From assembly GCA_947166355.1 (NCBI GenBank), contig CAMVDX010000006.1, positions 80,383 through 144,382 on the forward strand: DNA of 64,000 bases, in the 5' to 3' direction. The notes below the pieces were generated by a model that saw nothing but the letters and a program-made list of their open reading frames with translations, searched no databases and was not told the origin of the DNA. This stretch comes from an uncultured Treponema sp. GTDB lineage: Bacteria > Spirochaetota > Spirochaetia > Treponematales > Treponemataceae. Below are positions 8,074 to 33,195 of the stretch, piece by piece (the stretch's first letter is position 1; each line of letters begins with the position of its first letter). The translations under genes were made by a program, and so were the position numbers.

Positions 8074-8895
8074 TTAATCAACCTTCTTTGCACGTATGCG
8101 CAAAATGCTCGCCCTGCCCTCCACAGTAATTTTTTCGCCGGGTTTTACGGCATAAATTTCTTCAGCAAGAATTTTTTTGCCAATCTGCTCGCCACTTTCA
8201 CGGATTACAGCTTTATCTTCACTAAGAATATACAAAAGCTGAACATCTGCTGCGCCGTTATCATCATCTGAGCAGAACATACTCCAGCCGCCCTTTACAT
8301 CAACTCTTTCAATAGAAAAATACTTGCATTCAAAGCTGCCGGGAAAAGGTGCAACAGGCTGCATTTCCTCACGTTTGATTACAGCAAGACCTTTTTCGAT
8401 ATGAACTTCACGGCCGCGTCCCCAGTCATAAAGACGATATGTAAGGTCACAAGACTGCTGAACTTCCATAAGACGAAGTCCACCACCAATTGCATGCACT
8501 GTACCGGCCGGAATATAAATAAAGTCACCTTGCTTTACATTTACAAACTCAAGGTACTGTTCAAGATTATTGTCTGTAATTGCTTTTGCAAGAACTTCAT
8601 TTAAATAGCCCTCTTTAATTCCATAAACAATTTTTGCGTCAGGAGCTGCATCAAGAACATACCAGCATTCGGTTTTACCGCGGTTACCATTACCTTCAAG
8701 CTTTACAGCCCATTCATCATCCGGATGAACCTGAATAGAAAGAGTATCATCTGCCTGAATAACCTTAACAAGAAGCGGATATTCACCTCCGCAGAACGTC
8801 TTAAAGTCATCCTGACAGCCGTTTGGATGAGTCGAAGCAATCCAGAGCTCATAGCCCCAGATTTTGTCGGATTTGATAGGATTAAGTTTTAACAT
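8074..8895 (-). CDS. manA: Mannose-6-phosphate isomerase, class I
   Basis: ManA interconverts mannose 6-phosphate and fructose 6-phosphate using a zinc ion. The 273-residue short-form protein has IKSDKIWGYELW at the start, the zinc ligands in QVHPDDEW (residues 55-62) and the Glu of TECWYVLDA near 76, then IPAGTVHAIGGG and a downstream RLYDWGR. I start at ATG 8895; longer readings would translate the F1 repeat that lies directly upstream (its sequence CFAALAM is typical of that repeat). It follows a sugar nucleotidyltransferase gene, which suggests activated-sugar supply for glycan synthesis, though repeats separate the two. Confidence 0.93.
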   Translation of the reverse strand: MLKLNPIKSDKIWGYELWIASTHPNGCQDDFKTFCGGEYPLLVKVIQADDTLSIQVHPDDEWAVKLEGNGNRGKTECWYVLDAAPDAKIVYGIKEGYLNEVLAKAITDNNLEQYLEFVNVKQGDFIYIPAGTVHAIGGGLRLMEVQQSCDLTYRLYDWGRGREVHIEKGLAVIKREEMQPVAPFPGSFECKYFSIERVDVKGGWSMFCSDDDNGAADVQLLYILSEDKAVIRESGEQIGKKILAEEIYAVKPGEKITVEGRASILRIRAKKVD

Positions 8896-8906
8896 ATTTA
8901 CATCCA

Positions 8907-8974
8907 TCGTCATTGCGAGCGCAGCGAAGCAATCCACATTGTTGATTGCCACGTTGCTTCGCTCCTCGCAATGA
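8907..8974. repeat. Inverted pair of family F1 repeats
   Basis: GTCATTGCGAGCGCAGCGAAGCAATCC and GATTGCCACG...CTCCTCGCAATGAC face each other around a short ATTGTT spacer, able to form a long imperfect hairpin. The element begins about three bases after the stop codon at 8979 (minus strand) and runs almost to the manA start. Confidence 0.88.
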
Positions 8975-8978
8975 CGGC

Positions 8979-9893
8979 TTATTTATCCCAGAGTTTTTCA
9001 GGATAATAACCGTCTTTAATTTTCTTTGCAATTTCGTCTTTTACAAGCTGGCGGTCTTCAGGATAAGTCATACCAAACCAGGTTTCAGAAGAATTAAAGA
9101 ATTTAATAATTCCTTTACCATGAGCAATGATATCGCTTGCCGCAACAGGAAGCAGAGCCTCTGCCTTTGGAGCCTTAGAATTAGCGGCAATAAAGTTTTC
9201 CCAGTAAACGTGGAATTCTTCAAAAGCCTTAGGGCTAAAGCCAAACAGGTTCATACTTACCCATTCTTTTCCGGTAAAGAGCTTTTTCTCTCCGTCCGGC
9301 ATCTCACTTATAATCTGGTCTTTTTCATCGTAGTAGATTTTAAGATTTTCAACGATAGACTCAAGCTTTTCGTCTTTTACAGAACATACACCACGGCTTA
9401 CAGAACCAGAACGGCTCATTGTATTTCCCAGAATATAACCTACCATTGCATGTTCAGTGCAGTCATTATTTATTGAAGAAAGATATTTTCCGAGCACTTC
9501 AAAAGCCTGACGGCCATAATAATCATCAGAATTGATTACAGCGAACGGAGCATTAATAGCCTTTTCTGCACACAAAACTGCATGAGTTGTACCCCATGGC
9601 TTTTCGCGGCCTTCGCTGTCTTTAAGCTGCTGAGGAGTCAAAAGACTTTCATGCTGCTGGAATACATATTCAGCATCAAAATTACGTGCAATGCGGTCAA
9701 AAAGTCTCTCGCGGAAAGCCTGTTCAATATCCTTACGAATAATAAACACAACCTTTCCAAAACCGCTTTTCATTGCATCATAGGTTGCAAAATCAAGAAG
9801 ACATTCATCATGAAGGCCTACTCCGTCTATCTGTTTTACTCCGCCGTAGCGGCTTCCCATTCCGGCAGCTAACACCAATAATGTTGGTTTCAT
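8979..9893 (-). CDS. Sugar nucleotidyltransferase family protein
   Basis: The 304-residue protein begins with the nucleotidyltransferase signature LAAGMGSRYGG at residues 8-18, followed by the family lysine (VKQID). NSDDYYG near residue 120 is the metal/nucleotide aspartate region, and GTTHAVLCAE comes before it. Such enzymes transfer a nucleotidyl group from an NTP to a sugar phosphate. The ending is not typical of RfbA or GalU, so the substrate is unknown. It is upstream of manA on the same strand; GDP-mannose or another hexose nucleotide is possible but not shown. The start ATG is clear and a short AAAAAGAGGT-type purine run lies upstream. Confidence 0.83.
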   Translation of the reverse strand: MKPTLLVLAAGMGSRYGGVKQIDGVGLHDECLLDFATYDAMKSGFGKVVFIIRKDIEQAFRERLFDRIARNFDAEYVFQQHESLLTPQQLKDSEGREKPWGTTHAVLCAEKAINAPFAVINSDDYYGRQAFEVLGKYLSSINNDCTEHAMVGYILGNTMSRSGSVSRGVCSVKDEKLESIVENLKIYYDEKDQIISEMPDGEKKLFTGKEWVSMNLFGFSPKAFEEFHVYWENFIAANSKAPKAEALLPVAASDIIAHGKGIIKFFNSSETWFGMTYPEDRQLVKDEIAKKIKDGYYPEKLWDK

Positions 9894-9975
9894 TTTTTTA
9901 CCTCTTTATGAATTAAAATCCGGTGCAAGCCCGATAATGACAACAATATCAATATCCAGCCTGATCAGAAATTCT

Positions 9976-10677
9976 TTATTGTATTATTGTTTCTAAAGCA
10001 AGCTTCATCATGTCTTTAAAGGTTGTCTGACGTTCTTCGGCTGTAGTTGCCGTACCTTTTACGATATGATCGCTTACAGTAAGAATTGCAAGAGCTTTTC
10101 GCTTGAACTCTGCCGCAAGAGTATACAATTCTGCGGCTTCCATTTCAATTCCTACAACTCCAAACTTTTTCCAGAGCTTCCAGTTTTCATTATCATCATA
10201 AAAACGGTCGCTTGAAGCACAAGGCCCTACAACTGCTTTAATTCCGAGTTCTTTAGATTTATTGTAAGCTGTATTTAAAAGTTCAAAATCTGCAACAGGT
10301 GCATAGTGCATCAGTCCGAATCTCTGACTCTGCAATGACGAATCAGTACAGGCTCCGTTTGCAAGAATTACATCACGAAGCTCAACATCATCACCTACCG
10401 CGCCACAAGTTCCGACTCTAATTGCTTTCTGAACTCCATAGCAGTCAAAAAGCTCGTGAACATAAATTGAAAGAGACGGCTGGCCCATTCCGGTTCCCTG
10501 AACGGAAACTTTTACACCTTTATAAGTTCCGGTAAAGCCATACATACCGCGAACTTCATTATAACAAACCGGATTTTCCAGAAATGTTTCTGCAATAAAT
10601 TTTGCTCTGAGAGGGTCTCCCGGAAGCAAAACTTTGTCAGCGATTGCTCCTTCTGGAGCGTTAATATGTGTACTCAT
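9976..10677 (-). CDS. deoD: Purine nucleoside phosphorylase, DeoD type
   Basis: DeoD cleaves purine nucleosides with phosphate to the base and ribose 1-phosphate. The 233-residue protein has the expected [14 protein letters not shown] near residues 17-30, [21 protein letters not shown] with the phosphate-contact arginine, the base-contact segment [13 protein letters not shown], and the catalytic Asp in TVSDHI. Length and order match the hexameric bacterial family. The ATG at 10677 has no Shine-Dalgarno; a TATAAT ends six bases upstream, implying a leaderless transcript. No operon partner lies close by, so it appears to be a salvage gene on its own. Confidence 0.95.
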
Positions 10678-10683
10678 ATCTTT

Positions 10684-10711
10684 ATTATAATTGAAAAATA
10701 AAATAAATCAA
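10684..10711 (-). promoter_or_regulatory. deoD promoter, leaderless geometry
   Basis: On the minus strand TTGATT (10706-10711), a 16-base spacer and TATAAT (10684-10689) are followed after six bases by the deoD ATG. Transcription would start at or next to the A of ATG. Confidence 0.75.
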
Positions 10712-10776
10712 ATACAGAATACTAAAGATTTATCGACATCTTCGGCCTGTTATTTTTCAATCATAATAACTCCCCC

Positions 10777-11349
10777 CTATAAAAAAATCATGCCGAAGAC
10801 CGCGCCAAGAATAATTACCAGAATCGGGTGTGCTTTCAGCTTGAAAAGTAAGAATGCAAACACCGCGTAACCGGCAATAGGAATCCAGTTAAAAAGGTCT
10901 TTCCAGGCTTCTGCGGATGCCAGAGAACTCAGAGATTCCGGCGGATTTATCAGGGTAAACATGATTACCTGAATTACAGGCACTAAAATCAAACCCGTTG
11001 TTACCGGACGTAAAAAAGCGAGTGCTCCTTTTACATAAGTATTATCACTAAAGCTGCGTAAAAATCTTGCAATAATCAAAATGACAATTATAGAAGGAAG
11101 AACCTCCGCGCCGGTTACCGCAAGAGCTCCCGGTACACCATAAAGCTCATAACCTATATAAGTTGCCATATTGATTCCGATAGGCCCCGGCGTACTTTCA
11201 GAAATTGCAACCATATTATAAAACTGAGCCTGAGAAATAAGACCGGAAGAAACAATGGACTGCTGCATGAGGGTAATTGCAACCTGGCCTCCGCCGATTG
11301 TAAAAAGTCCTATATAAAAAAAGGTAAAAGCAAGCTGAAGCAAAGACAT
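10777..11349 (-). CDS. Chromate transporter family (CHR) subunit, second half
   Basis: This 190-residue membrane protein carries the CHR-domain pattern: FFYIGLFTIGGGQVAI near residues 10-25, then SESTPGPIGINMATYIGYELYG, and about five to six membrane segments. Short CHR proteins are encoded in pairs and are thought to assemble into the equivalent of the fused ChrA antiporter. The start is at 11349, where the ATG overlaps the stop of its partner by one base (TAATG), so the two are translated together. Despite the family name, substrate specificity of these paired short forms is mostly untested. Confidence 0.9.
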   Translation of the reverse strand: MSLLQLAFTFFYIGLFTIGGGQVAITLMQQSIVSSGLISQAQFYNMVAISESTPGPIGINMATYIGYELYGVPGALAVTGAEVLPSIIVILIIARFLRSFSDNTYVKGALAFLRPVTTGLILVPVIQVIMFTLINPPESLSSLASAEAWKDLFNWIPIAGYAVFAFLLFKLKAHPILVIILGAVFGMIFL

Positions 11350-11969
11350 TATTTTTCCTCCCCGTCAGAAGAAGCAGACTTTGAAACATCATCTGCTTTT
11401 TCTTCAACAGAAGCTGTGGCCTTCTTCTGCTTATAAAGGGTAAGCAGACTTCCACTCAAAAGTGCCGCAAGAATTATCCAGACAGACTGAACCTTGAAAA
11501 AATAAATAAGAACAAACGCAAGAAGCATAAACAAGGCATTCCATATGTTTTTAATATTTTTCTTTGAAAACTTCACAATTACACTTGTAAGCAAAGCTGC
11601 TACCGCAACATTAATTCCTTTAAGTGCTTTTTGCGCCAGAGGATATTTATCTATAGAACTGATTGCACCAGCCAGAATCATAATGATTACCCAGGACGGA
11701 GTTACAACTCCAAGAGTTCCGATAATACCACCTGTCCATCCAAGTCTTTTATAACCTACAAAGGTTGCAACATTTACGGCAATAATTCCCGGAGTGCTCT
11801 GCCCTATGGCAAAATAATCAATCAGCTCATCATCTGTTATCCAGCCGCGTTTTTCTATGAGTTCACGCTGCATAATCGGCATCATCGCAAGCCCGCCGCC
11901 AAAAGTAAATGCGCCGATTTTCACAAATGCAAAATACAGCTCAAAGAAATCCTTCAATTTATTTTTCAT
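11349..11969 (-). CDS. Chromate transporter family (CHR) subunit, first half
   Basis: A 206-residue partner of the preceding gene. It contains FVKIGAFTFGGGLAMMPIMQREL near residues 15-37 and AIGQSTPGIIAVNVATFVGYKRLG, the same two motifs as its neighbour, so the two halves are homologous. The C-terminus ends in a hydrophilic Lys/Glu/Ser-rich tail (ASVEEKADDVSKSASSDGEEK region). It overlaps the 3' end of the sensor kinase gene by eleven bases, so it may be part of that transcript, which would make its expression depend on the kinase promoter. Chromate or another oxyanion are the family substrates. Confidence 0.9.
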   Translation of the reverse strand: MKNKLKDFFELYFAFVKIGAFTFGGGLAMMPIMQRELIEKRGWITDDELIDYFAIGQSTPGIIAVNVATFVGYKRLGWTGGIIGTLGVVTPSWVIIMILAGAISSIDKYPLAQKALKGINVAVAALLTSVIVKFSKKNIKNIWNALFMLLAFVLIYFFKVQSVWIILAALLSGSLLTLYKQKKATASVEEKADDVSKSASSDGEEK

Positions 11970-14052
11970 TCTTATCCCCTAAGAATTTATTGTTTATAGA
12001 TAGCTGAACACAAGTTCCCCGAGGTTTATTACTCTTAATCACAAAGCTTGCTCCAATCTGATTTGCCCTGTATTCCATGGAATTTAATCCGAGCCCTTTT
12101 TCCTTGCCGCCTTTATCATTTACAAAGCCAACACCATCATCTATCACGCGCACCACAGTTTTACGGCCTTCAGTAAATACACTGACCTCAACATTATGTG
12201 CCTTGGAATGCTTAAGTACGTTATGAAGTGCTTCCTGTATAATTCTGAAGATATTAAGCTTCTGAGTTTTATCGAATTTTACATCATCACGCACACCCCA
12301 CTCATAATCACATTTAATACCGGATTGAGCCATAAATGAATCACAGAGATTACTTAAACTATGATTCATACCAAGGCTTTCCAGTTCAACAGGATAAGAG
12401 TTATGAGCATACTGTCGAGTAGTCTGAAGGGTCTCTCCTATAAGCTGTGCAAGTTCTACCATCTGCGATTTTTCTACAGGCTCTTCCTGATTTGAATAAC
12501 TGCGGCAAAGCATAGAGATTCCCGCAAGACGCTGACAGATATCATCATGAAGATCATTACTAAATCTCTGACGCTCAAGCTCACTTATTTTCAGGATTTC
12601 AGCTTCAACTTCCATTCGCCGGTTATTTGCTTCCACAAGTTCTTTTGTACGTTCGTTTACTTCACGCTCCAGATATTCAGAATGTTTGCGTCTTTCTTCT
12701 GCAATTGTAATTCGGTTTAAGCCATGCGCAATATTTATAGCAATTGAACTCAGATACGGAAGAACATTTTCATCAGCTTCATAAAAAATACAGCCGATTG
12801 ATTCATTTCCTGCGTAAAGAAATTTCAAAATCATTGAAGGTTTTGTCAATGGATCAATCTCATAAAATCTGCGGTAAAACTGACCAAGCGGCATTTTCAT
12901 CTCACGATCAAACTCATAACACTCATTTCCGCTACGTCGCACAAAAAGAGGATCCACCGGAATATTTTTTGCATGAGCTCCCTTTGACTTTTCGCTTGAA
13001 AAACGGCAGATACAAAAATTATTAAGACCAAGCTGATTCAAATTCTGCCGAACAACATATTTTAAAGCACCAAAAGTTTCGCCATAATTTAAATCCTGTC
13101 CTATATGACTCACCATACGTAGCAGAGTTTCAGACTGAACATAATTTGCCTGCATTGCACGAAATTGTGCCTCATCAGAAGCAAAATCATCCTTACTGCC
13201 CTTACATCCGCACGATTTTCTATAAACAACACGAGATTCAATAAAAACTTCTTCTGGAACCGATTTTCCACCCACTAAATCCTTCATTAATTCGAGTGAT
13301 TTAGCCCCTATTTCATTAAGCGGCTGATGAACCGTAGTTAGAGAAGGAATTTCAAACCTTGCCTGCGGAATATCATCAAACCCAGTAACAGCACATTCCT
13401 TTATATCCGAATCATTACAGTTTATCTTAAAATATTTATAAACACCTATTGCCATATTGTCATTCGCACAGACTACAACATCAGGAACCTTTTTTGTCTC
13501 ATTCATATATTCAGTCATTGCACGGATTGCGGCAACTTCAGTAAAATAACCACGTTTAAGTGAATATTCCAGATCAGAAAACCACGGACGGTAGGCTTCC
13601 ATCGTTTTTGTAAAAATATGCTCACGGACCTCTGCATCAGGATGATCTTCGGCACCACTAATAAAAAGAAATTTTCGATATTTATGATTAAGAATTAGAT
13701 GTTCAACGAGCTGCTTCATAGAATCTTCAGTTTCAATTAAAACTGAAGGAACTCCTTGAATTTTCTGACCGACAGAAATTACGGGAAGTTTTCCCCATAC
13801 TCTTTCTACATCTTCTTTTGAAATGAACTCGGCATTGCCGGTAATTACAGAAGTAATAAGGATAATACCGTCTAAATCAAAGTAATCCTTATGCGGAAAA
13901 CGGGCTATAGGTTCATCTTCTGTAATATGAGAATTTTCCTGCTGAAAACATACAAGTTCTACACCGAGTTCTTTAGCCTTCTGAACGATTCCCTTGTATA
14001 CCGAAATCTGATATTCCTCATCCAGAATATTTAAAACAACACCAATTCTCAT
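11959..14052 (-). CDS. Soluble histidine kinase with LacI-type sugar-binding sensor domain
   Basis: The protein has 697 residues from ATG 14052. Residues 1-280 resemble the ligand-binding part of LacI/GalR repressors (VVCANDNMAIGVYKYFKIN, AVTGFDDIPQARFEIPSLTTVHQP), but the HTH that normally precedes it is absent and there is no signal peptide or membrane segment. A CGCKG pair follows. After a GAF-like middle part and a coiled coil comes a HisKA_3 kinase: ERQRFSNDLHDDICQRL with the phosphorylated His near 502, then an HATPase with NVLKHSKA and DDGVGF. It should sense a cytoplasmic ligand and phosphorylate a NarL-type regulator, most simply the divergent 14098 gene. I chose 14052 because TATAAT ends six bases upstream. 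Domain boundaries are by eye. Confidence 0.85.
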   Translation of the reverse strand: MRIGVVLNILDEEYQISVYKGIVQKAKELGVELVCFQQENSHITEDEPIARFPHKDYFDLDGIILITSVITGNAEFISKEDVERVWGKLPVISVGQKIQGVPSVLIETEDSMKQLVEHLILNHKYRKFLFISGAEDHPDAEVREHIFTKTMEAYRPWFSDLEYSLKRGYFTEVAAIRAMTEYMNETKKVPDVVVCANDNMAIGVYKYFKINCNDSDIKECAVTGFDDIPQARFEIPSLTTVHQPLNEIGAKSLELMKDLVGGKSVPEEVFIESRVVYRKSCGCKGSKDDFASDEAQFRAMQANYVQSETLLRMVSHIGQDLNYGETFGALKYVVRQNLNQLGLNNFCICRFSSEKSKGAHAKNIPVDPLFVRRSGNECYEFDREMKMPLGQFYRRFYEIDPLTKPSMILKFLYAGNESIGCIFYEADENVLPYLSSIAINIAHGLNRITIAEERRKHSEYLEREVNERTKELVEANNRRMEVEAEILKISELERQRFSNDLHDDICQRLAGISMLCRSYSNQEEPVEKSQMVELAQLIGETLQTTRQYAHNSYPVELESLGMNHSLSNLCDSFMAQSGIKCDYEWGVRDDVKFDKTQKLNIFRIIQEALHNVLKHSKAHNVEVSVFTEGRKTVVRVIDDGVGFVNDKGGKEKGLGLNSMEYRANQIGASFVIKSNKPRGTCVQLSINNKFLGDKNEK

Positions 14053-23225: not shown

Positions 23226-23398
23226 ATGGATTGCGGCTTGATAATCTATCATCAAGCCGCAAAACGAATGAGTCAAGGCTATAAGCGACAGCGTGCCTTG
23301 ATCATTCGTATTGCCGCGTCGCTGCGCTCCTCGCAATGACGTGGGGCGCTGTGATTTTTGCAATGACGCGGGGCGCTGCGCTTTTCGCAATGATGAAA
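23226..23398. repeat. Hairpin and family F1 repeat cluster
   Basis: After the transporter stop there is an inverted repeat GCGGCTTGATAAT / ATCATCAAGCCGC near 23232-23262, able to act as terminator. It is followed by one good and two partial copies of the CTCGCAATGACG...GGGGCGCTG repeat up to the stop codon of the 23400 gene. No gene seen. Confidence 0.7.
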
Positions 23399-23399
23399 A

Positions 23400-26300
23400 C
23401 TATTCGAGTAAAATATAATTGGTAATCAGCATAAAGGACTTGTCTGGCTGCTGAATACCATTTATAAGTATTCTGACTTTTGTATAAGAGCCGTCTTTCT
23501 TTATGGCACGATAGTCATAAGAAAACGGCTTTTTAAATTTTCCAAGAAAAGCCTTTACAATAGCTGTCTTAAAGCCGGCTCTATCTTGTGGATGTATAAC
23601 ATCAAATGCTTCTTTTTCAGTCCAGTTCAGAATTTCTTCTTCTGTAAAACCAGAAAGCTCTAAAAAAGTCTGGTTTACTCGCATAACCCGCACATGCAAT
23701 ACAGAAGAAAAAAGACGTCGCATCTCAAGCTCAACATGCATCAAACATAAACCAACCTGCGAATTATCCATCATCATTCCAAGCTGATTATTTGAAAGAG
23801 CTAAAGTGTTCTCTGTTATCTTTTCATTAGTAACATCTTCTGCAAGTATGTAAAATGAATGTTTTTGACCATTACGACTTATTTCCCAAAGATGTGTTTT
23901 AACCCAAAGCGGACGCTGCTTTATATATGTGCGGACCTCGACATTAAAGGTAACTTCCTTATTATCTGCCAGAGATTCCCTAAACTTTTCCAGAAGTTCA
24001 ATATACGCAGCCTTTTTTATAAGATTTTTAAGACTCTTTCTTGCATCTGCAAAAGACAGTTCTTCAATTTCAAATAAACTTAGGAACTTTAAATTTGCCC
24101 TTATGAGCACAAGCGCCTGAGTTTTTTCATCAAATTCAAAGATGGCAGCAGGCCCCGTAAACTCTTCAAACATAAGACTTTCAGAGGAATCTGGTGTAAG
24201 GAATTTACGAACATCAATCTGCCCAAAAGTTCTGGGTCTGCTTACCGTTCCATGTTTTGAAGATTTTTTCAGGAGTTCAAGAAAATCCTGTTCCGGCATA
24301 GGCTTTGCATATAAAAATCCCTGAATTACATTTACACCGATACTCCTTAGAAAATCAGCCTGTTCCTGAGTTTCTACACCTTCTGCAACGGTTATGTATT
24401 CAAGTCCCTGAGCCATGCGTACAACATAATTTATGATTGTACCCCCGCGGTTCTGATTGTTGTCACCGCGCATAAATCCCATGTCGAGCTTCAGAATGTC
24501 AATCGGCATATCTTTAAGGGAATTCAGCGAAGAATAACCTATTCCAAAATCATCCATTGCAATACTAAAGCCAAGACTGCGTAGCTTTTCTATACGAGAA
24601 GTCAGATAATTCTGTGCTTTTATTGCAGCACTTTCTGTAATTTCAAAGTGAATATATTTTTCGGGAACCGCATACTTTTCTTTTAGCCGCTTAATAGTAT
24701 AATAAAGCTTATCAGATTCAAGGCTGACACGAGAAATATTTATAGAAATCGGAACCAGATCTATACCCTGCTTTAACCAGGAACTCACACTTTCAAAAAC
24801 CTTAGTCCAGATTGCTTCATCCAGTAATCTTATAAAGCCATTTTTTTCTGCTACAGGAATAAAAAGTGAAGGAGAAATTATGGTGCCGTCTTTTTTTATC
24901 CAGCGGCAGAGTGCCTCAGCTCCAACGAGCTCTCCTGTAGAAGATGAATATTGCGGCTGATACCAGATTTTGAATTCAGCATTATTCATTGCAGGCTGCA
25001 TTTTTGCCGTTATATCTGCTTCAACATGAGTCTGTTCAAGATTCTTTTCTGTAAATGCAGTATAGGTATTCTGAATTGATGAAATATAATCTGCCATTCC
25101 AAGCGATGCCTGAGTCATTGCCTGTCCCAAACCGATAGATGCATTTGTAATTCTTATTCCAAAGTGCATGGTAACAGGAAAGGTAATATTCAGAGAGCTG
25201 CAGTCAAAAATCTTGCAGGACTGAAGCCGCTGTAAATTATCTACCGAGTTCTCCATACAAAGCGCAAAATTGCCACCACCAAGTCTCGCAACAAGACCTT
25301 CATCTCCGGCAATCTGACGCAGAGTTGCCGCAACCAGCTTTAATATTGCAGTTCCAGTTTCAAAGCCATACAAATCGTTTATAATTCTAAGTTTATTAAC
25401 ATCACCAACTGCAACAATGAAGTTTTTATCAGGATTTTTCTTAAGCAGCGCATCTCCTTCTTTTTTGAATGCAACCGGCGTAAGCACACCTGTATCTACA
25501 TCTGTAAAAAGCCGTTTAAGCATAAGGTCATTCATATAATGAATGCAGTTTTCCTTTCTTGCATAACCGTAAGCAATAGCCCTTACCATATCCTGGCAGG
25601 AATTATAACCGCATGAACCGCAGTTCATATTTTGCTTCTGAGGAGTATCCTTAAGCATATCATTATAGATTTCATCAACAGCACTCTGTGGAATCTTAAA
25701 CTGCTGTCTCGAAAAATCTGTATATGTGCGCTCAAAATCTTCTGGCCGCAGATATTTAAAATGACTTGAAAAATGTTTCCAGAGTTTTTCAGGATTTTCA
25801 ATATCTTTATAATGCTGATAGAATTTATTTCTTATGGCAATTGTTGAAGAATAAACATTCTCTTTGTTAAAAGACAAAAAATCTACGCCAGGCCCTGCAA
25901 CACAGCCGTTTTTACATGCAGAAATCTCTACCAGAAGCGGTAGAGTTTCTTTATATTTTTCGTTAAAGGACATATAAAGAGAGTCCATATTGTCTTTATT
26001 AAAGCCTATAAGCGAAATAATTGTTTCTGTACGTGAGAAAAAATAAGAAATAATTTCTGCAAACTCACTGTTTTTTGAAATAAGAGAACCTATTCCTTCA
26101 GATTTTAAATCAGCTTCGCCGCTATAATCAGAAAAATTATATTCAGAAAGCTTTGGCATAAGATGTCCGAAGGTCAGATTATAACTGATACTTCCGTCCG
26201 TATTCTGACTTTCTGTTTCATCCTTATGTGCAATACAGGTTCCAAGGCAGGCGATTTTATTGTTATCTCCCAGATATTTTTTTGCATAAATTGCCGTACA

Positions 26301-26828
26301 TATTAGAGACGGCTGAACAGGAATAAGTTTTTTGAGCAGGAAAGGATGATATTTTTGAATTACAGTTACAAGAGCCGGGCACGCATTGCTTATAAAGGCG
26401 CGATTGTTGTCGGAATTCTGCTGATGTTCCTTAATATATTTTACTGTAAGATAAGCAGAAATCTCACGGCCAAAAGCTCCGTCATAAATCTTTTCCACAC
26501 CAAGAGCCTTTAGACATCCAATAATTTGAGAAGCCTGTTCTCCATAAATTGCATAAAAAGATGGAGCAAGAATCAGAGAGATTTTTTCACCGGCTTTTAA
26601 ATCCTGCAAAAAGGAATCAGTATCATCACGATAGCTTCTTGCATGGTGAATGCACACACTAATACATTTTCCGCAATCATTACACTTTCGAGAATCAATT
26701 GCCATGCGGGTAATGCCGTTTTTTACGACAGAAACATTTGCCCCCATCAGAGAACAGTTGCTGATGCATTTATTACAGCCAATGCAGTTATCATTTGTAT
26801 AAATAATACCTTTATTGTATCTGTCCAT
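23400..26828 (-). CDS. Sensory [FeFe]-hydrogenase-like / GGDEF-EAL c-di-GMP protein
   Basis: The protein has 1142 residues, starting at ATG 26828 (GAGG six bases upstream). Residues 15-60 bind two [4Fe-4S] clusters (CIGCNKCISNC, CNDCGKCISVC). Residues 80-320 match the [FeFe]-hydrogenase H-cluster domain with all four ligand cysteines: C150 in SNACPA, C198 in GTCIAHKDE, and C305 and C309 in ACKNGCVAGPG. The proton-relay Cys before C150 is Ala, as in HydS-type sensory hydrogenases. A CGSCGYNSC iron-sulfur domain follows near 403-428. GGDEF is degenerate (GGGNF, 517-521), but EAL is intact (E638-A-L, DDFGIGYSSL, EGVET). The C-terminus is PAS-like. Likely a redox- or H2-responsive c-di-GMP phosphodiesterase; last gene of a three-gene operon. 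Confidence 0.88.
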   Translation of the reverse strand: MDRYNKGIIYTNDNCIGCNKCISNCSLMGANVSVVKNGITRMAIDSRKCNDCGKCISVCIHHARSYRDDTDSFLQDLKAGEKISLILAPSFYAIYGEQASQIIGCLKALGVEKIYDGAFGREISAYLTVKYIKEHQQNSDNNRAFISNACPALVTVIQKYHPFLLKKLIPVQPSLICTAIYAKKYLGDNNKIACLGTCIAHKDETESQNTDGSISYNLTFGHLMPKLSEYNFSDYSGEADLKSEGIGSLISKNSEFAEIISYFFSRTETIISLIGFNKDNMDSLYMSFNEKYKETLPLLVEISACKNGCVAGPGVDFLSFNKENVYSSTIAIRNKFYQHYKDIENPEKLWKHFSSHFKYLRPEDFERTYTDFSRQQFKIPQSAVDEIYNDMLKDTPQKQNMNCGSCGYNSCQDMVRAIAYGYARKENCIHYMNDLMLKRLFTDVDTGVLTPVAFKKEGDALLKKNPDKNFIVAVGDVNKLRIINDLYGFETGTAILKLVAATLRQIAGDEGLVARLGGGNFALCMENSVDNLQRLQSCKIFDCSSLNITFPVTMHFGIRITNASIGLGQAMTQASLGMADYISSIQNTYTAFTEKNLEQTHVEADITAKMQPAMNNAEFKIWYQPQYSSSTGELVGAEALCRWIKKDGTIISPSLFIPVAEKNGFIRLLDEAIWTKVFESVSSWLKQGIDLVPISINISRVSLESDKLYYTIKRLKEKYAVPEKYIHFEITESAAIKAQNYLTSRIEKLRSLGFSIAMDDFGIGYSSLNSLKDMPIDILKLDMGFMRGDNNQNRGGTIINYVVRMAQGLEYITVAEGVETQEQADFLRSIGVNVIQGFLYAKPMPEQDFLELLKKSSKHGTVSRPRTFGQIDVRKFLTPDSSESLMFEEFTGPAAIFEFDEKTQALVLIRANLKFLSLFEIEELSFADARKSLKNLIKKAAYIELLEKFRESLADNKEVTFNVEVRTYIKQRPLWVKTHLWEISRNGQKHSFYILAEDVTNEKITENTLALSNNQLGMMMDNSQVGLCLMHVELEMRRLFSSVLHVRVMRVNQTFLELSGFTEEEILNWTEKEAFDVIHPQDRAGFKTAIVKAFLGKFKKPFSYDYRAIKKDGSYTKVRILINGIQQPDKSFMLITNYILLE

Positions 26829-26835
26829 TTTTGCC

Positions 26836-27948
26836 TCACTCAAAAACAAGAAGAACCATAGACTGATTCAAATGAATAAAATCCATCTGCTCTCCGTATC
26901 CTGAAACGCCTATGAATTTTCCATAACTGCGAAGTGCATTTACAAATTCTCCGAAACACCCCTGATTTTCAAAATATTTTGAACGAGCCAGACAATTTAC
27001 CGAAATCGTAAACGACGGCTGTTTTATATTTTCAAGAACACGATTTTCAGTTTCTTTCCACACACGCCTAACATCATCTACTTCAAGAAGAAGTATTTTT
27101 GTCTGATTGTAGATTCTCGAAAAATAGGAAATAGATCCATCTTCATATATCTTTTCGGCCTCGGTTATATAAATCTCATTGCCGGCAATACGCCCCATAG
27201 GATGAATATAAAGGACCTCAGAAAGTTCGCTTACAGAAATTCCAAGAGCCTCAGCAAGGACAACAGCAGCAGGACGCTCGTTATATTCAAAAACAATACG
27301 TTCCTCACAATCTGCATAGGTAGCAACAAGCTTATGAGAGGTCGGCTTGAACATATTTTCACGAAAAATTCCAACTTTTCCGTTCAGATTATGAATAAAA
27401 ACAAAAGCACAGGTATTTTTAAAAATATCGCCATTAAGTGCAACAAAGGTATCTGTACAGTCAGCAGCAGCGCCGGAAGAACTACCCGCAACCTTTATTC
27501 CAGTTCCTTCAAGAACTTCTTCAAAGGTATCTAAAACAAGCTCTTCTCCCTTTCCAAAGGCAGTCATAAATTCAAGACAACAGGTATTTTCATACGAAGA
27601 CAGTTTAGAAAGAGCCTCCTGTATATGAACCTTATACATGGCAGGATGTCTGTCTATATCAAAAAGAAGGCCGGCAGAAACTTCAACGCCATCATTAATT
27701 GCCATAACACAGGCACCACTGTGACTATAACCTTCACAAGAATAATTTACATAAGTAGAAGAACCAATTACAGTTGCATCAGGATAATTTTCTTTAAGCC
27801 GAGCAGAAAAGAACCAAAGCATATCCAGCTCAGAAAAGAATATAATCAACTTTGGACATACTGAATTCGCATCTAACTGTGCTTTAATTTCAGAGTAGGC
27901 TTCCTCATTTACGGAACTTGATGTAAGGGCTACGACACATCTTTCCAC
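26836..27948 (-). CDS. FIST-domain sensory protein
   Basis: The 370-residue soluble protein has the FIST N layout (VVALTSSSVNEEAYSEIKAQL start, ATVIGSSTYVNYSCEGYS, and GTGIKVAGSSSGAAADC) and a FIST C half with IHPMGRIAGNEIYI. FIST domains are proposed small-ligand sensors, and the nitric-oxide sensor NosP is a haem-binding member usually encoded with kinases or c-di-GMP enzymes. It starts at GTG 27948 with GGGAG upstream, 11 bases after the hybrid kinase stop. It ends seven bases before the hydrogenase-EAL gene. The three are very likely one operon. The ligand is unknown. Confidence 0.86.
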   Translation of the reverse strand: MERCVVALTSSSVNEEAYSEIKAQLDANSVCPKLIIFFSELDMLWFFSARLKENYPDATVIGSSTYVNYSCEGYSHSGACVMAINDGVEVSAGLLFDIDRHPAMYKVHIQEALSKLSSYENTCCLEFMTAFGKGEELVLDTFEEVLEGTGIKVAGSSSGAAADCTDTFVALNGDIFKNTCAFVFIHNLNGKVGIFRENMFKPTSHKLVATYADCEERIVFEYNERPAAVVLAEALGISVSELSEVLYIHPMGRIAGNEIYITEAEKIYEDGSISYFSRIYNQTKILLLEVDDVRRVWKETENRVLENIKQPSFTISVNCLARSKYFENQGCFGEFVNALRSYGKFIGVSGYGEQMDFIHLNQSMVLLVFE

Positions 27949-27959
27949 TACGCTGCTCC

Positions 27960-29720
27960 CTAAGAACGTTTATTATCACGGAAGAAAAGCATGAGCACTT
28001 TAAGTAAAGACGCCATATCAACCGGCTTTACAAGATAAGCGTTCATACCCGCATTAAAGGCACGAGATTTTTCTTCTGCAAAGGCATCTGCTGTAAGAGC
28101 AATAATTGGGATTTCAGCAATCTGTTTATCTGTAAATTTCCTGATAATCTTTGTAGTTTCATAACCATCCATAACCGGCATCTGTAAATCCATAATAACA
28201 AGATCATAATAACCCGGCTCAGAATCACGCAGCTTTTCAATTGCAAAGGAACCATCGATTGCCTCTTCAATTATAAAGCCCTCATCAAGCAGCGAATCCA
28301 CAAGAATTTCACGATTAAGATCATTATCATCAACAACAAGAATACGCCGGCCTTTAAAATCGTAATGAACAAAATCCTGATCTTCCTCAATTTCTGTAAG
28401 AGACGGAATTGAAAGCGGCAGAATAACCGTAAACTCAGAACCTTTTCCAAGTTCGCTGGTTACTTCTATCGTTCCACCCATAATCTCTGCATGCGATTTT
28501 GCAATAGTTAAGCCAAGACCTGTTCCCGCCACCGAGAATGCAGTTTCTTTATCACGTTCAAATGGCAAAAATACTCTTTCCAAAAATTCAGGTGACATAC
28601 CGCGCCCTTCATCGCGAATATGAAATTCATTTATAATCTTTGTTTCATCATCACTCGAAAGCTGAATTATTGAAATATAAATTTTTCCACCATCATAAGA
28701 ATACTTTACCGCATTACTTAAAATATTCAGAAGAATCTGATTCAAGCGGATTTTATCACAGGAAAGCACATCATCATCAAGCATGCTGTAGTCAGTTTCT
28801 ACGGTGAGATTTTTAGCCTCCATCTCGCCCTGCATAATCTGACAGATATTATCAATTATCGAATGTAAACTGCAAAGTTCCTCTTCTATTTGAGTTTTTC
28901 CATTTTCAATTTTAGAAATATCGAGAACTTCATTTACAAGACTCATAAGATGATTTGAAGCAACAGAAATTTTTGAAAGACTGTCTGCAAGCTTTTCAGG
29001 ATTATCCATATTCTTTTTTGCAATCTCTGTAAATCCAATTATTGCATCCATAGGAGTACGAATATCATGCGAAACATTTGAAAGGAAGTCGCGTTTCGCT
29101 TTGATTGCCTGATTTGCACCAATAATGGAAGCAGTAATGGTCTTCTGCTGTTTTTCGTAAATAAAGGTTTGATATTTAAAAATTGAACCGATTACAAGTA
29201 CACTTGCCAGCATTGCACAAACAACATCAACATAAACCTGATGAACACTTGCCATACGGTGAATAATTTCAGGATGATAATAGGTATAAATTACAAGTGC
29301 AATAAACTCCAGACTATTAATTATAAACAGTACAATTGTCTTTTTACCACGCATCAGCAGAAACGGACTGATAAGTCCCAGCAGATACCACTGAGGCATA
29401 CCACTTTCGATTCCACCAGAATATACATATAGAAGCGGCAAAAGAATATTATTGAACATAATTGAAGCCATTACCACTGCAAGCTGAGGACGATTCAGTT
29501 TATTTGCAAGCAGATATGTGATTATGAATACTGCAAGGCAGACAAAAGAAGTAATCTGAGCATAAACATTCTGGTGCGATACGGTAGTTACGACACAGGC
29601 AACTGTAATTCCTGCAAGTCCTGCAAGCAGAATAACATTGAGAAGCCGATGTTTAATGTCGTACTGTTCTGTGAATATTCTTCTGAAAACAGATTTTGCC
29701 GTATTCTTAACTGACTGCAT
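27960..29720 (-). CDS. Membrane hybrid sensor histidine kinase
   Basis: The 586-residue protein has about six N-terminal membrane segments (residues 28-185), a HisKA domain with phospho-His 218 in NVSHDIRTPMDAIIGFTEI, an HATPase (NILSNAVKYS, DEGRGMSP, GTGLGLTIAKS), and a C-terminal receiver (VVDDNDLNREI, acceptor Asp in IMDLQMPVMDGYE, K in YLVKPVD). It lacks a separate extracytoplasmic domain, so input may come through the membrane part or a partner. It is first in the operon with the FIST and hydrogenase-EAL genes. TATAAT ends eight bases before the ATG with no Shine-Dalgarno. Confidence 0.92.
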   Translation of the reverse strand: MQSVKNTAKSVFRRIFTEQYDIKHRLLNVILLAGLAGITVACVVTTVSHQNVYAQITSFVCLAVFIITYLLANKLNRPQLAVVMASIMFNNILLPLLYVYSGGIESGMPQWYLLGLISPFLLMRGKKTIVLFIINSLEFIALVIYTYYHPEIIHRMASVHQVYVDVVCAMLASVLVIGSIFKYQTFIYEKQQKTITASIIGANQAIKAKRDFLSNVSHDIRTPMDAIIGFTEIAKKNMDNPEKLADSLSKISVASNHLMSLVNEVLDISKIENGKTQIEEELCSLHSIIDNICQIMQGEMEAKNLTVETDYSMLDDDVLSCDKIRLNQILLNILSNAVKYSYDGGKIYISIIQLSSDDETKIINEFHIRDEGRGMSPEFLERVFLPFERDKETAFSVAGTGLGLTIAKSHAEIMGGTIEVTSELGKGSEFTVILPLSIPSLTEIEEDQDFVHYDFKGRRILVVDDNDLNREILVDSLLDEGFIIEEAIDGSFAIEKLRDSEPGYYDLVIMDLQMPVMDGYETTKIIRKFTDKQIAEIPIIALTADAFAEEKSRAFNAGMNAYLVKPVDMASLLKVLMLFFRDNKRS

Positions 29721-29728
29721 AATTTTTA

Positions 29729-29757
29729 ATTATATCACTACTCCATTAGATTATCAA
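29729..29757 (-). promoter_or_regulatory. Promoter of the kinase-FIST-hydrogenase operon
   Basis: TTGATA (29752-29757), a 17-base spacer and TATAAT (29729-29734) on the minus strand form a near-perfect vegetative promoter. Eight bases remain to the start codon, so the transcript should be leaderless or nearly so. Confidence 0.8.
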
Positions 29758-31257: not shown

Positions 31258-33195
31258 CTACGACTCAACCGCTGGAACTCCGGCTCTCTTTAAAAGTTCA
31301 ACACACTCTTGCGGAGGCAGCGGACGACTGTAAAGAAAGCCTTGAATATAATCTACTCCTGCTCGTTCCACAAGATAATTCTGATTATTTGTTTCTACTC
31401 CTTCCACAAGAATCTTAAAACCAACTTCTTTAAACGTACTTACAAGATCAAAGAAAAGGCTTACCCCCTTCTGACCATCTTCCATTGCAAGTACAAGAGA
31501 GCGGTCCATTTTTATTGTAGAAAACGGAAGTGAAATCACATTTGTCAAATTAGAATATCCCGTTCCAAAATCATCAAGATAAAATTTTACACCAGCCTTT
31601 GCAAGCTCAAGCATATGTTTCATTACAAGTTCATAATTATCAATAAAAATACTTTCTGTAATTTCCATAATAATATTTGAAGGTGAAAGTGAAAAACGTT
31701 CTATTGTATTAAGTACATTCTGCACAACATTCGGATTCATCATCTGATAAACCGAAAAGTTTATAGAAACTGCATTTACCGTATTGCGGTTATCTGAAAT
31801 GAATTTACAAACCTTTTCAAAAGCAACAAAACCGAGCATTTCTATAAGACCGCGACTTTCTGCAACCTGAACAAATTCCTGCGGAGGAATATCTCCAAGC
31901 TCTGTTTTCATTAGACGCGAAAGAGCTTCCATATATTCAAATCTGTTATTCTTGATAGAATAAATCGGCTGATACCAGACCTGAAACTGTTCTGATTCAA
32001 GAGTAAGTTCACGGCGAAGAATTCTGTAAATATAACGCTTACGTTCACGGTCTACAAAGACAGACTCATCACAAATCTGTAGACTTTTAAGCTGCGCAGC
32101 CTTTGCCCTCACGAGCATACTGTTTACAAGGTCAATCATAGAATCATAATCATTTTCTTCTCTTGAAAACTCCAATGCAGCCGAATAAGATTCAATAGGA
32201 ATCGGAATTAAAGAATTAATATCAGAACTGAGTTTTTTAATATCCTCAAAAATAAGGGCACTTTTTACCTTCACATCATCAACCGATTTTCCTATAGCGG
32301 CAAATCGGTTTATTGAGATGATATAAGCATTACGCGGAAAATGCGTCATAAATATTTTACCGAGCTGCAAAAAAAGCTGATTTAATTCTGACGCATCAAG
32401 GCTTGATTGAATCATATTAATATTATCAATCGTCATTACAAAAAGAACACCACCACGTCTCTGAGTAGAAATGCGCTTTCTTAAACGGCTGTCCATCATA
32501 AGACCGGTTTTCATATTAATTTCCATTGTATATGACTGAATCGTAACATAAGCAAAAAGCACAGAAGTAAAAGATGCAACACCGGTAAGTATTAATTTAG
32601 GAAAGAAGAATTGAATTCCAACAAAAAATAATGAAATAAACGGATATGCTATAAATACGCAAAAAATACGGCGCGCAAGAAATCGTCTTTGTATCACAGC
32701 CGTAATAACAATAGCAAGTCCATAACCAAAGGAAAGAAAATATGTCAGATTTTTTAAGGGACCACGAACATATCCTTTAACTTCATCATAAGTAAAAATC
32801 CACCCTGTTGTAATATTCAAAATAACCAGAAAAACATAGACTAAAAGAACCATTCCTGCTGCCATTGTCAGATTATTCAGTTTCTTTTTACTCTGAATTG
32901 CCATATCAAAAACGTAGCAGGTCATTATGCATGGACATATTAAAAGAACAAGAAAGTAAAGAGTCGTTATTATTGTGCAGGAATAAAGAGGCTTATCTGA
33001 AAAGTTTGTAATAAAATGAACAGAAATTATATTAAAAAACGACGCAAGCAAAGTTGAAGCGGCCGCTCCTAAAAAGAACCTCTGATGTTTATCATACAGA
33101 GCATAAGAGAGCAGCGTATTAATACAGATTAAAACTGAGCCCCAGCATGTTATAAGTTCACCAATAATGTAGTAATCTGATATTCCGAATTCCAT
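31258..33195 (-). CDS. Membrane-bound EAL-domain c-di-GMP phosphodiesterase
   Basis: The 645-residue protein has about seven N-terminal membrane helices (residues 10-225), a degenerate GGDEF-like domain (about 245-390, no GGDEF signature: FAAIG in its place), and an EAL domain from about 400 to the end. Its catalytic landmarks are intact: YMEALSRL, ITESIF, DDFGTGYSNL, KMDRSLV, EGVET and QGFLYSRPLP. It should hydrolyse c-di-GMP to pGpG in response to a membrane or extracytoplasmic cue. TATCAT lies seven bases before the ATG and no Shine-Dalgarno is visible. It is monocistronic. Confidence 0.9.
   Translation of the reverse strand: MEFGISDYYIIGELITCWGSVLICINTLLSYALYDKHQRFFLGAAASTLLASFFNIISVHFITNFSDKPLYSCTIITTLYFLVLLICPCIMTCYVFDMAIQSKKKLNNLTMAAGMVLLVYVFLVILNITTGWIFTYDEVKGYVRGPLKNLTYFLSFGYGLAIVITAVIQRRFLARRIFCVFIAYPFISLFFVGIQFFFPKLILTGVASFTSVLFAYVTIQSYTMEINMKTGLMMDSRLRKRISTQRRGGVLFVMTIDNINMIQSSLDASELNQLFLQLGKIFMTHFPRNAYIISINRFAAIGKSVDDVKVKSALIFEDIKKLSSDINSLIPIPIESYSAALEFSREENDYDSMIDLVNSMLVRAKAAQLKSLQICDESVFVDRERKRYIYRILRRELTLESEQFQVWYQPIYSIKNNRFEYMEALSRLMKTELGDIPPQEFVQVAESRGLIEMLGFVAFEKVCKFISDNRNTVNAVSINFSVYQMMNPNVVQNVLNTIERFSLSPSNIIMEITESIFIDNYELVMKHMLELAKAGVKFYLDDFGTGYSNLTNVISLPFSTIKMDRSLVLAMEDGQKGVSLFFDLVSTFKEVGFKILVEGVETNNQNYLVERAGVDYIQGFLYSRPLPPQECVELLKRAGVPAVES

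Follow-up and report, generated by a model that had tools for sequence, protein, structure and literature searches.

Three genes on the minus strand of a 64,000-nucleotide stretch from an uncultured Treponema sp. (assembly GCA_947166355.1, contig CAMVDX010000006.1; hereafter the window) encode, in order of transcription, a hybrid histidine kinase (29720-27960), a protein with FIST and FIST_C domains (27948-26836) and a protein of 1142 amino acids (aa) with an ATG start (26828-23400), in which a hydrogenase-like iron-sulfur (Fe-S) module is joined to GGDEF, EAL and PAS domains. We refer to the last of these as the fusion. The host is a spirochaete related to Treponema bryantii, in keeping with the Treponema-like origin given in an initial annotation of this DNA. 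Its genome is 89% complete; searches of its clade cover this genome and five close relatives that are 94-99% complete. The kinase and FIST genes are separated by 11 bases (GGAGCAGCGTA) and the FIST and fusion genes by 7 (GGCAAAA), spacings that had been reported correctly, and the three genes form one transcription-unit-like cluster. As the five relatives carry full-length fusions (65-70% full-length identity) in the same kinase-FIST-fusion order, the unit is not a chance open reading frame.

Translation and Pfam searches bore out the domain content proposed for the fusion, namely two ferredoxin motifs, an H-domain, an FeS domain of CGSCGYNSC type, a degenerate GGDEF and a complete EAL domain. 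The two ferredoxin-type [4Fe-4S] motifs (Fer4, residues 12-63, 26640-26795; C15, C18, C21, C25 and C49, C52, C55, C59) have eight cysteines that are invariant in 20 fusions. They precede the H-domain (Fe_hyd_lg_C, residues 83-313, 25890-26582), which scores 84 bits against a cut-off of 22 and is supported by conservation and structure models as well as by Pfam. Its four H-cluster cysteines are C150, C198, C305 and C309, as the initial annotation had it, and Ala149, immediately before C150, does replace the proton-transfer cysteine. A Cx2Cx4Cx16C cluster motif follows (FeS, PF04060, residues 400-429, 25542-25631; C403, C406, C411, C428), and the N-terminal module thus appears to hold cysteine sets for four [4Fe-4S] clusters. 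The GGDEF domain (residues 442-551, 25176-25505) has the motif RLGGGNF and is degenerate in most relatives also. In the EAL domain (residues 610-843, 24300-25001; 216 bits), the residues E638, N697, E729, D759, D760, K780, E816 and Q836 are all present and each is conserved in 153 or more of 155 fusions; they correspond to E, N, E, DD, K, E, Q, the catalytic set of EAL structures. The fusion is therefore a predicted phosphodiesterase of cyclic diguanosine monophosphate (c-di-GMP). Of the proposal that c-di-GMP hydrolysis is the output of a hydrogenase-like sensor, the joining of an H-domain to an intact EAL domain stands, and the activity is a predicted one. The contrast drawn with sensory hydrogenases (HydS) that end in PAS or kinase domains is weakened: the EAL output is intact, but the fusion also carries a C-terminal PAS domain that the initial annotation had missed (PAS_3, 43 bits, residues 1049-1127, 23448-23684). 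No PAS domain is listed for relatives of about 860 aa.

An AlphaFold2 (AF2) model of residues 1-440, built from 20 sequences, has a predicted local distance difference test score (pLDDT) of 87 and a predicted template modelling score (pTM) of 0.85. The 50 Foldseek matches listed for this model are all [FeFe]-hydrogenases (best E-value 7e-18, template modelling score 0.67 on the query), and the modelled fold is accordingly that of a hydrogenase H-domain. In the full-length model (pTM 0.42), confidence is good inside most domains and lacking between them; with pLDDT below 50 at residues 422-431, neither how the domains are arranged nor where the linker helix starts can be read from it. This helix (residues ~428-441) comes after the cluster motif and runs into the GGDEF domain, its start being of low confidence. 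An alpha/beta stretch at residues ~880-998 of the model, which has no Pfam match, looks like a possible second PAS-like domain.

The same fusion was found in other genomes. The protein has matches in 193 of the 195 genomes from its family, many of those listed through GGDEF-EAL alone; at least 35 genomes, the host's own included, have a match spanning both H-domain and EAL. Among approximately 5.8 billion proteins, we found 1303 relatives of residues 1-440 within our length limits. The 120 listed matches of these 1303 all have EAL and GGDEF domains; where the source gives a name, as it does for a few of the 120, it is that of an EAL or GGDEF/PAS protein and never that of a hydrogenase. We also examined named loci, the best 80 of 477 confirmed. 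The best come from Treponema (T. bryantii XBD1002, B25 and NK4A124, and metagenome-assembled genomes (MAGs) from rumen or horse), then from Lachnospiraceae and other Clostridia. The 80 comprise 34 EAL fusions and 46 loci without an EAL match, the latter figure including L173, whose frame reaches GGDEF at a contig end. In a quick tree, five EAL fusions (L198, G004, G191, L193, L225) nest among HydS without EAL, so an EAL output has probably arisen on more than one occasion. Pairs of FIST and H-domain-EAL genes are found in MAGs of Candidatus Colinaster, Lachnospiraceae and Ruminiclostridium (L165, L166, L169, L170, L172). These five loci fall with the Treponema fusions in a single supported clade, which suggests that the FIST-fusion pair has been transferred between Spirochaetota and Clostridia.

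We compared conservation of the cluster cysteines with that of the surroundings of the diiron subsite. In [FeFe]-hydrogenases the four H-cluster cysteines ligate the [4Fe-4S] half of the H-cluster. All 16 cluster cysteines of the fusion are invariant in 20 aligned fusions. The cubane set C150/C198/C305/C309 is kept in 35/35 genome fusions and in the 120/120 database fusions listed, the ferredoxin set in 34/35 (the exception, G011, is cut by a contig end) and the third set in 155/155, each cysteine of it included; Gly110 is kept in 35/35 and Gly312 in 34/35. The 34 named fusions and this protein keep 99.8% of the cysteines at sites invariant in non-EAL HydS. What we take as the diiron pocket is ten sites (A88, P89, A121, S173, P174, P197, A200, K201, G254 and G255 in this protein's numbering), picked by us near the H-cluster motifs from sites invariant in group A, B and C2 hydrogenases and kept by at least 43 of 44 such enzymes from the own and related genomes. 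By alignment, some of these presumably correspond to A230, P231, S323, P324, P354 and K358 of CpI. This protein keeps three of the ten, tied for the lowest score among 60 fusions (G011, G060, G109 and eight identical rows being left out), with Arg121, Pro173, Ser174, Thr197, His201, Ser254 and Glu255 in place of A, S, P, P, K, G and G. Lys201, at the position of CpI Lys358, is present in 12/35 genome fusions and 47/120 database fusions versus 43/44 group A, B and C2 enzymes; these counts omit FUS_G060 and FUS_G109, which are HydS without EAL, and the truncated B_G178. At the named loci, Lys201 is kept in 18/34 EAL fusions versus 43/44 aligned non-EAL proteins, two of the 46 non-EAL loci (>1300 aa) being left out.

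Neither HydE, HydF nor HydG was found above cut-off in the host's own genome, with Thermotoga maritima, the positive control, scoring above it; the HydF search gave 13 weak GTPase matches, the best at 82 bits against a cut-off of 326. None was found above cut-off in the five close relatives either (HydF at an E-value limit of 1e-40 and HydE at 1e-10), which gives 0/6 for the clade, and HydG had no match in three named T. bryantii isolates. The initial annotation had itself named the lack of hydEFG genes as evidence that would count against it, and as far as these six genomes go that lack is what we observe. More widely, 39 genomes with a fusion or HydS include 15 with HydG, 14 with HydF and 16 with HydE above cut-off, mostly the same genomes. 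Those with none of the three include G000, G003, G141, G015, G151, G145, G081, G155, G034, G019, G178, G176 and G193, among others. HydG is above cut-off in 16 of the 48 genomes behind the named loci.

Other hydrogenases occur in the same clade. A contig of the host's own genome (C42, locus L012) carries a divergent pair, a HydS fused to a methyl-accepting chemotaxis protein (MCP; group C2 by motif; 8385-10469, minus strand) and a group B1 hydrogenase (10585-12036, plus strand), which scores 512 bits on TIGR04105 (cut-off 450). The diiron motifs of the two are intact, in a genome where no HydE, HydF or HydG is above cut-off. The B1 hydrogenase shares 90-93% identity with its counterparts in four T. 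bryantii-like relatives, and the B12-binding radical S-adenosylmethionine gene that comes after it (12167-13858, plus strand) is found there too, at 68-73% identity. Group A hydrogenases with intact motifs likewise occur without the three maturases above cut-off at L078 (G081), L067 (G034), L068 (G019), L069 (G097) and L074 (G104), and some of these genomes are 94-99% complete. Either the group B1 hydrogenase and the MCP-fused HydS of HydEFG-less genomes in the clade acquire a diiron site by an unseen route, or they function without one. Comparable cases have been described: all Archamoebae encode a HydB homologue, including a species where HydA and the maturases were not found (PMC10711303), and Rhodospirillum rubrum has a hydrogenase but no maturases, an enzyme that earlier authors considered to be inactive or to serve another function (PMC4967309).

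The FIST partner, a part of the initial annotation that is supported, recurs well beyond this operon. A FIST gene lies directly upstream of 15 genome fusions out of 35, a set in which two lack upstream sequence, and of 18 of the 31 named EAL fusions with >1.3 kb upstream, compared with 1 of 39 non-EAL loci; that lone case is a GGDEF fusion truncated at the end of its contig. The pairing spans Spirochaetota and Lachnospiraceae. Among 22 genomes searched, FIST is beside the fusion in 14, only elsewhere in three and absent in five, which include G060 and G109 (no EAL fusion) and the EAL-fusion genomes G131, G106 and G082. In the host's genome the sole FIST match is the one at this locus. Twenty-eight FIST proteins encoded next to fusions share two invariant cysteines, Cys124 and Cys319, and no invariant histidine. 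Five others are encoded away from any fusion: Cys124 is retained in the two that belong to the same subfamily and missing from two distant ones, and the fifth resisted alignment. The FIST gene stands beside a kinase and a c-di-GMP enzyme, as nosP genes do, but its product, though related to NosP, scores 134.6 bits against the NCBIfam cut-off of 450 for NosP, and the kinase scores 147.2 against 400 for near_NosP_CTERM, the model for NahK/ErcS kinases. We therefore rejected the identification of the two as NosP and NahK. The kinase itself has five hydrophobic segments by hydropathy, and HisKA, HATPase and receiver domains. In a survey of 37 neighbourhoods, some of them cut by contig ends, it was present only in the own and the five T. 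bryantii-like genomes, which led us to reject a conserved three-gene system; the membrane kinase joined the operon in this lineage alone. Thus, of the single unit of three genes that had been described, the pairing of FIST and fusion recurs and the kinase does not belong to that conserved pairing.

The altered pocket, together with the failure to find HydE, HydF or HydG, makes it likely that the fusion reads the redox state of the cell and not H2. We lean, slightly on the favourable side of even, towards a phosphodiesterase that descends from a sensory hydrogenase and is switched by the redox state of its [4Fe-4S] clusters, probably without the diiron half. The fusion has the two N-terminal [4Fe-4S] motifs, the four H-cluster cysteines and the Cx2Cx4Cx16C motif of a group C HydS; it lacks conserved diiron-subsite residues (3/10, with Lys201 replaced by His), and its clade lacks detected maturases. 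Because of these two shortfalls we do not file it as an H2-sensing HydS; judged from its sequence, it would behave like a redox-gated EAL enzyme on a HydS chassis. The suggestion that H2 or redox state tunes c-di-GMP is then plausible in its redox half and unsupported in its H2 half. Electrons might enter from a ferredoxin-like donor by way of the two N-terminal clusters and reach the cubane of the former H-cluster and the Cx2Cx4Cx16C cluster. The redox state of these clusters would shift the helix at ~428-441 that leads into the non-catalytic GGDEF, and the GGDEF would in turn gate the EAL dimer. The FIST protein encoded just upstream may provide a second input by binding or inhibiting the fusion, and a third could come from the PAS domain. 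Oxidation might raise EAL activity, lower c-di-GMP and favour swimming, a guess that could about equally well be reversed. A broader proposal, to which we would give somewhat less than even credence, is that such proteins are widespread gut c-di-GMP phosphodiesterases in which the H-cluster has been stripped to its [4Fe-4S] half as a redox switch, often wired to FIST, and the diiron pathway lost.

Several observations weigh against a redox switch without the diiron site or limit the evidence for it. The host's genome is only 89% complete, and the diiron cofactor may be made in the clade by a route that the maturase models miss. The excess of pocket loss in this protein, which speaks for our reading (3/10 sites kept, against 71/108 at other HydS-invariant sites; P = 0.038 by Fisher's exact test, uncorrected) comes from one of 35 rows, the only one to reach P = 0.05, and its clade mates give P = 0.09-0.31. 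In the 34 named fusions and this protein taken together, pocket sites and the other HydS-invariant non-cysteine sites are kept equally often, at 66% each, a control that rules out pocket decay above background in all fusions and leaves it for this protein alone; the sequence comparison thus points to pocket constraint relaxed to background and not singled out, except nominally here. K14, G62, E204, D215 and I232, not counted as pocket, are also near-invariant in groups A, B and C2 and also drift, and Lys202, the neighbour of Lys201, is kept. Pocket scores are higher where HydG is present (median 9 vs 6, n = 21 vs 39; P = 0.0003 by Mann-Whitney test), in favour of our reading, but this is a correlation only: it is lost under phylogenetic pairing (seven supported pairs, median P = 1), and the tree pairs are too few to speak of cause. 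MAGs with 10/10 pockets and no HydG (G137, G191, L193, L209, L225) run contrary to it, perhaps owing to incompleteness. Loss of Lys201 as a single-site marker of maturase loss was rejected (P = 0.17 by Fisher's exact test). The presence of FIST as an explanation of pocket loss was dropped too (P = 0.07 for Lys201 by Fisher's exact test, no tree support). Finally, the HydEFG-less clade genomes keep a full pocket in their group B hydrogenase and MCP-fused HydS in 5/6 genomes examined; these two sets do not include G145, and the motif survey did not recognise L083, L131, L134 and L144.

The intact pockets in HydEFG-less genomes keep alive the alternative that the fusion is a true H2 sensor, with diiron inserted and H2 oxidation at the H-cluster reducing the relay clusters and so setting EAL activity. 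Its four H-cluster cysteines are invariant, some other EAL fusions keep 9-10 of the ten pocket residues in HydG-bearing genomes (those of L178 and L181 keep all ten), and Ala149, Gly196 and Ser303, which also count against our reading, match A131, G177 and S267 of the Thermotoga sensor TmHydS, which artificial maturation renders active (PMC10055695). However, sensory enzymes conserve the residues that hydrogen-bond the [2Fe] subsite and stabilise it (PMC10055695), and this is not so in the fusion; together with the 3/10 pocket and the six genomes without maturases above cut-off, this makes H2 sensing, the core of what was first proposed, unlikely in our judgement. A different possibility is that FIST is the real sensor, through heme/NO or thiol chemistry, and that the hydrogenase-like part is a docking or structural body for EAL. 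The recurrent upstream position, the lack of any other FIST match in the host and the precedents of NosP and CdpA (PMC8846402) speak for it. Yet about half of the fusions have no adjacent FIST and three EAL-fusion genomes have no FIST match at all, 16 invariant cluster cysteines would be unneeded by a passive body, and no histidine is invariant in the FIST proteins; we consider it quite improbable. Decay of the H-domain to a relic, with EAL unregulated or regulated by PAS, could account for the eroded pocket, the degenerate GGDEF and the C-terminal PAS, but cluster cysteines kept in fusions down to ~30% identity, as well as Gly110 and Gly312, leave this reading with very little probability.

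Among known systems, the redox-gated phosphodiesterase that we favour resembles HydS, which HydDB divides into kinase-linked (C1), chemotaxis-linked (C2) and phosphatase-linked (C3) classes, in its two ferredoxin motifs, H-domain cubane cysteines, Cx2Cx4Cx16C motif, signalling output and PAS. It differs in its degenerate diiron pocket, in the lack of detected HydEFG in its clade and in its GGDEF-EAL output, which is outside the C1-C3 outputs (PMC5037454). The E. coli O2-sensing phosphodiesterase DosP, with which the EAL region aligns, similarly places GGDEF-EAL under a gas or redox input. Its sensor is a heme PAS domain, in contrast to the fusion's iron-sulfur clusters. Nar1, a eukaryotic Fe-S protein homologous to hydrogenases, has retained cluster cysteines but has no diiron site, which makes it a parallel in likeness, with no claim of shared descent. 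[NiFe] hydrogenases have a fold unrelated to that of [FeFe]-hydrogenases. Unlike the fusion, Nar1 has no signalling output and works in Fe-S assembly. It has been described as a hydrogenase-related protein of Fe-S biogenesis (PMC4967309). In the accessible HydDB description we found no EAL-linked [FeFe] class; [NiFe] group 2c is listed there as putatively diguanylate-cyclase-linked, a hydrogenase-type sensor likewise proposed to work via c-di-GMP (PMC5037454), but with a cyclase, not a phosphodiesterase, whereas the fusion is one polypeptide. In CdpA of Vibrio cholerae and in NosP-NahK-NarR, FIST-FIST_C proteins control an EAL enzyme, and NosP systems have an adjacent kinase (PMC8846402, PMC12570481); here FIST is separate, the EAL partner has a hydrogenase-like module, and kinase and FIST both score well under the respective models (147 vs 400 and 134.6 vs 450 bits). 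The accessible text of open-licence PMC literature (CC0, CC BY, CC BY-SA) yielded no fusion of [FeFe]-hydrogenase with EAL, GGDEF or c-di-GMP functions, group 2c being the nearest.

The family bears on how sensory hydrogenases relay their signal; in TamHydS, the C-terminal cluster gave no response to H2 (PMC13104023). Invariant cubane and relay cysteines beside a drifting pocket set the redox function apart from that of H2 sensing, and natural variants are on offer, some with an intact pocket and HydG in the genome and some with neither, all with an assayable output. If our reading is true, it adds an iron-sulfur redox input to c-di-GMP signalling; the terms 'hydrogenase', 'iron-sulfur', 'Fe-S' and '4Fe-4S' are absent from the accessible text of a 2022 review of c-di-GMP stimuli (PMC8846402).

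Upstream of the operon, the single strong promoter reported earlier corresponds to a promoter-like TTGATA-17-TATAAT with an extended -10 (TG) on the minus strand (29757-29729), which matches the consensus at 11/12 positions and is the best of 15 sites in the scan; the site count is not in excess of shuffled sequence (mean 20.8), which tempers the claim. The -10 hexamer lies 8 bases from the kinase ATG, and the kinase mRNA would be nearly leaderless if this promoter is used. A second EAL protein is encoded near the operon (31258-33195, minus strand). On the same side of the operon in T. bryantii-like relatives lies a comparable EAL gene, 29-30% identical to the EAL part of the fusion. A dispersed repeat, CGCTGCGCTCCTCGCAATGACG, is present in the window in six copies at up to three mismatches (23320-23341, 23374-23395 and at 8955, 33887, 44137 and 46882), where none is expected by chance, and the first two of these lie just downstream of the fusion gene.

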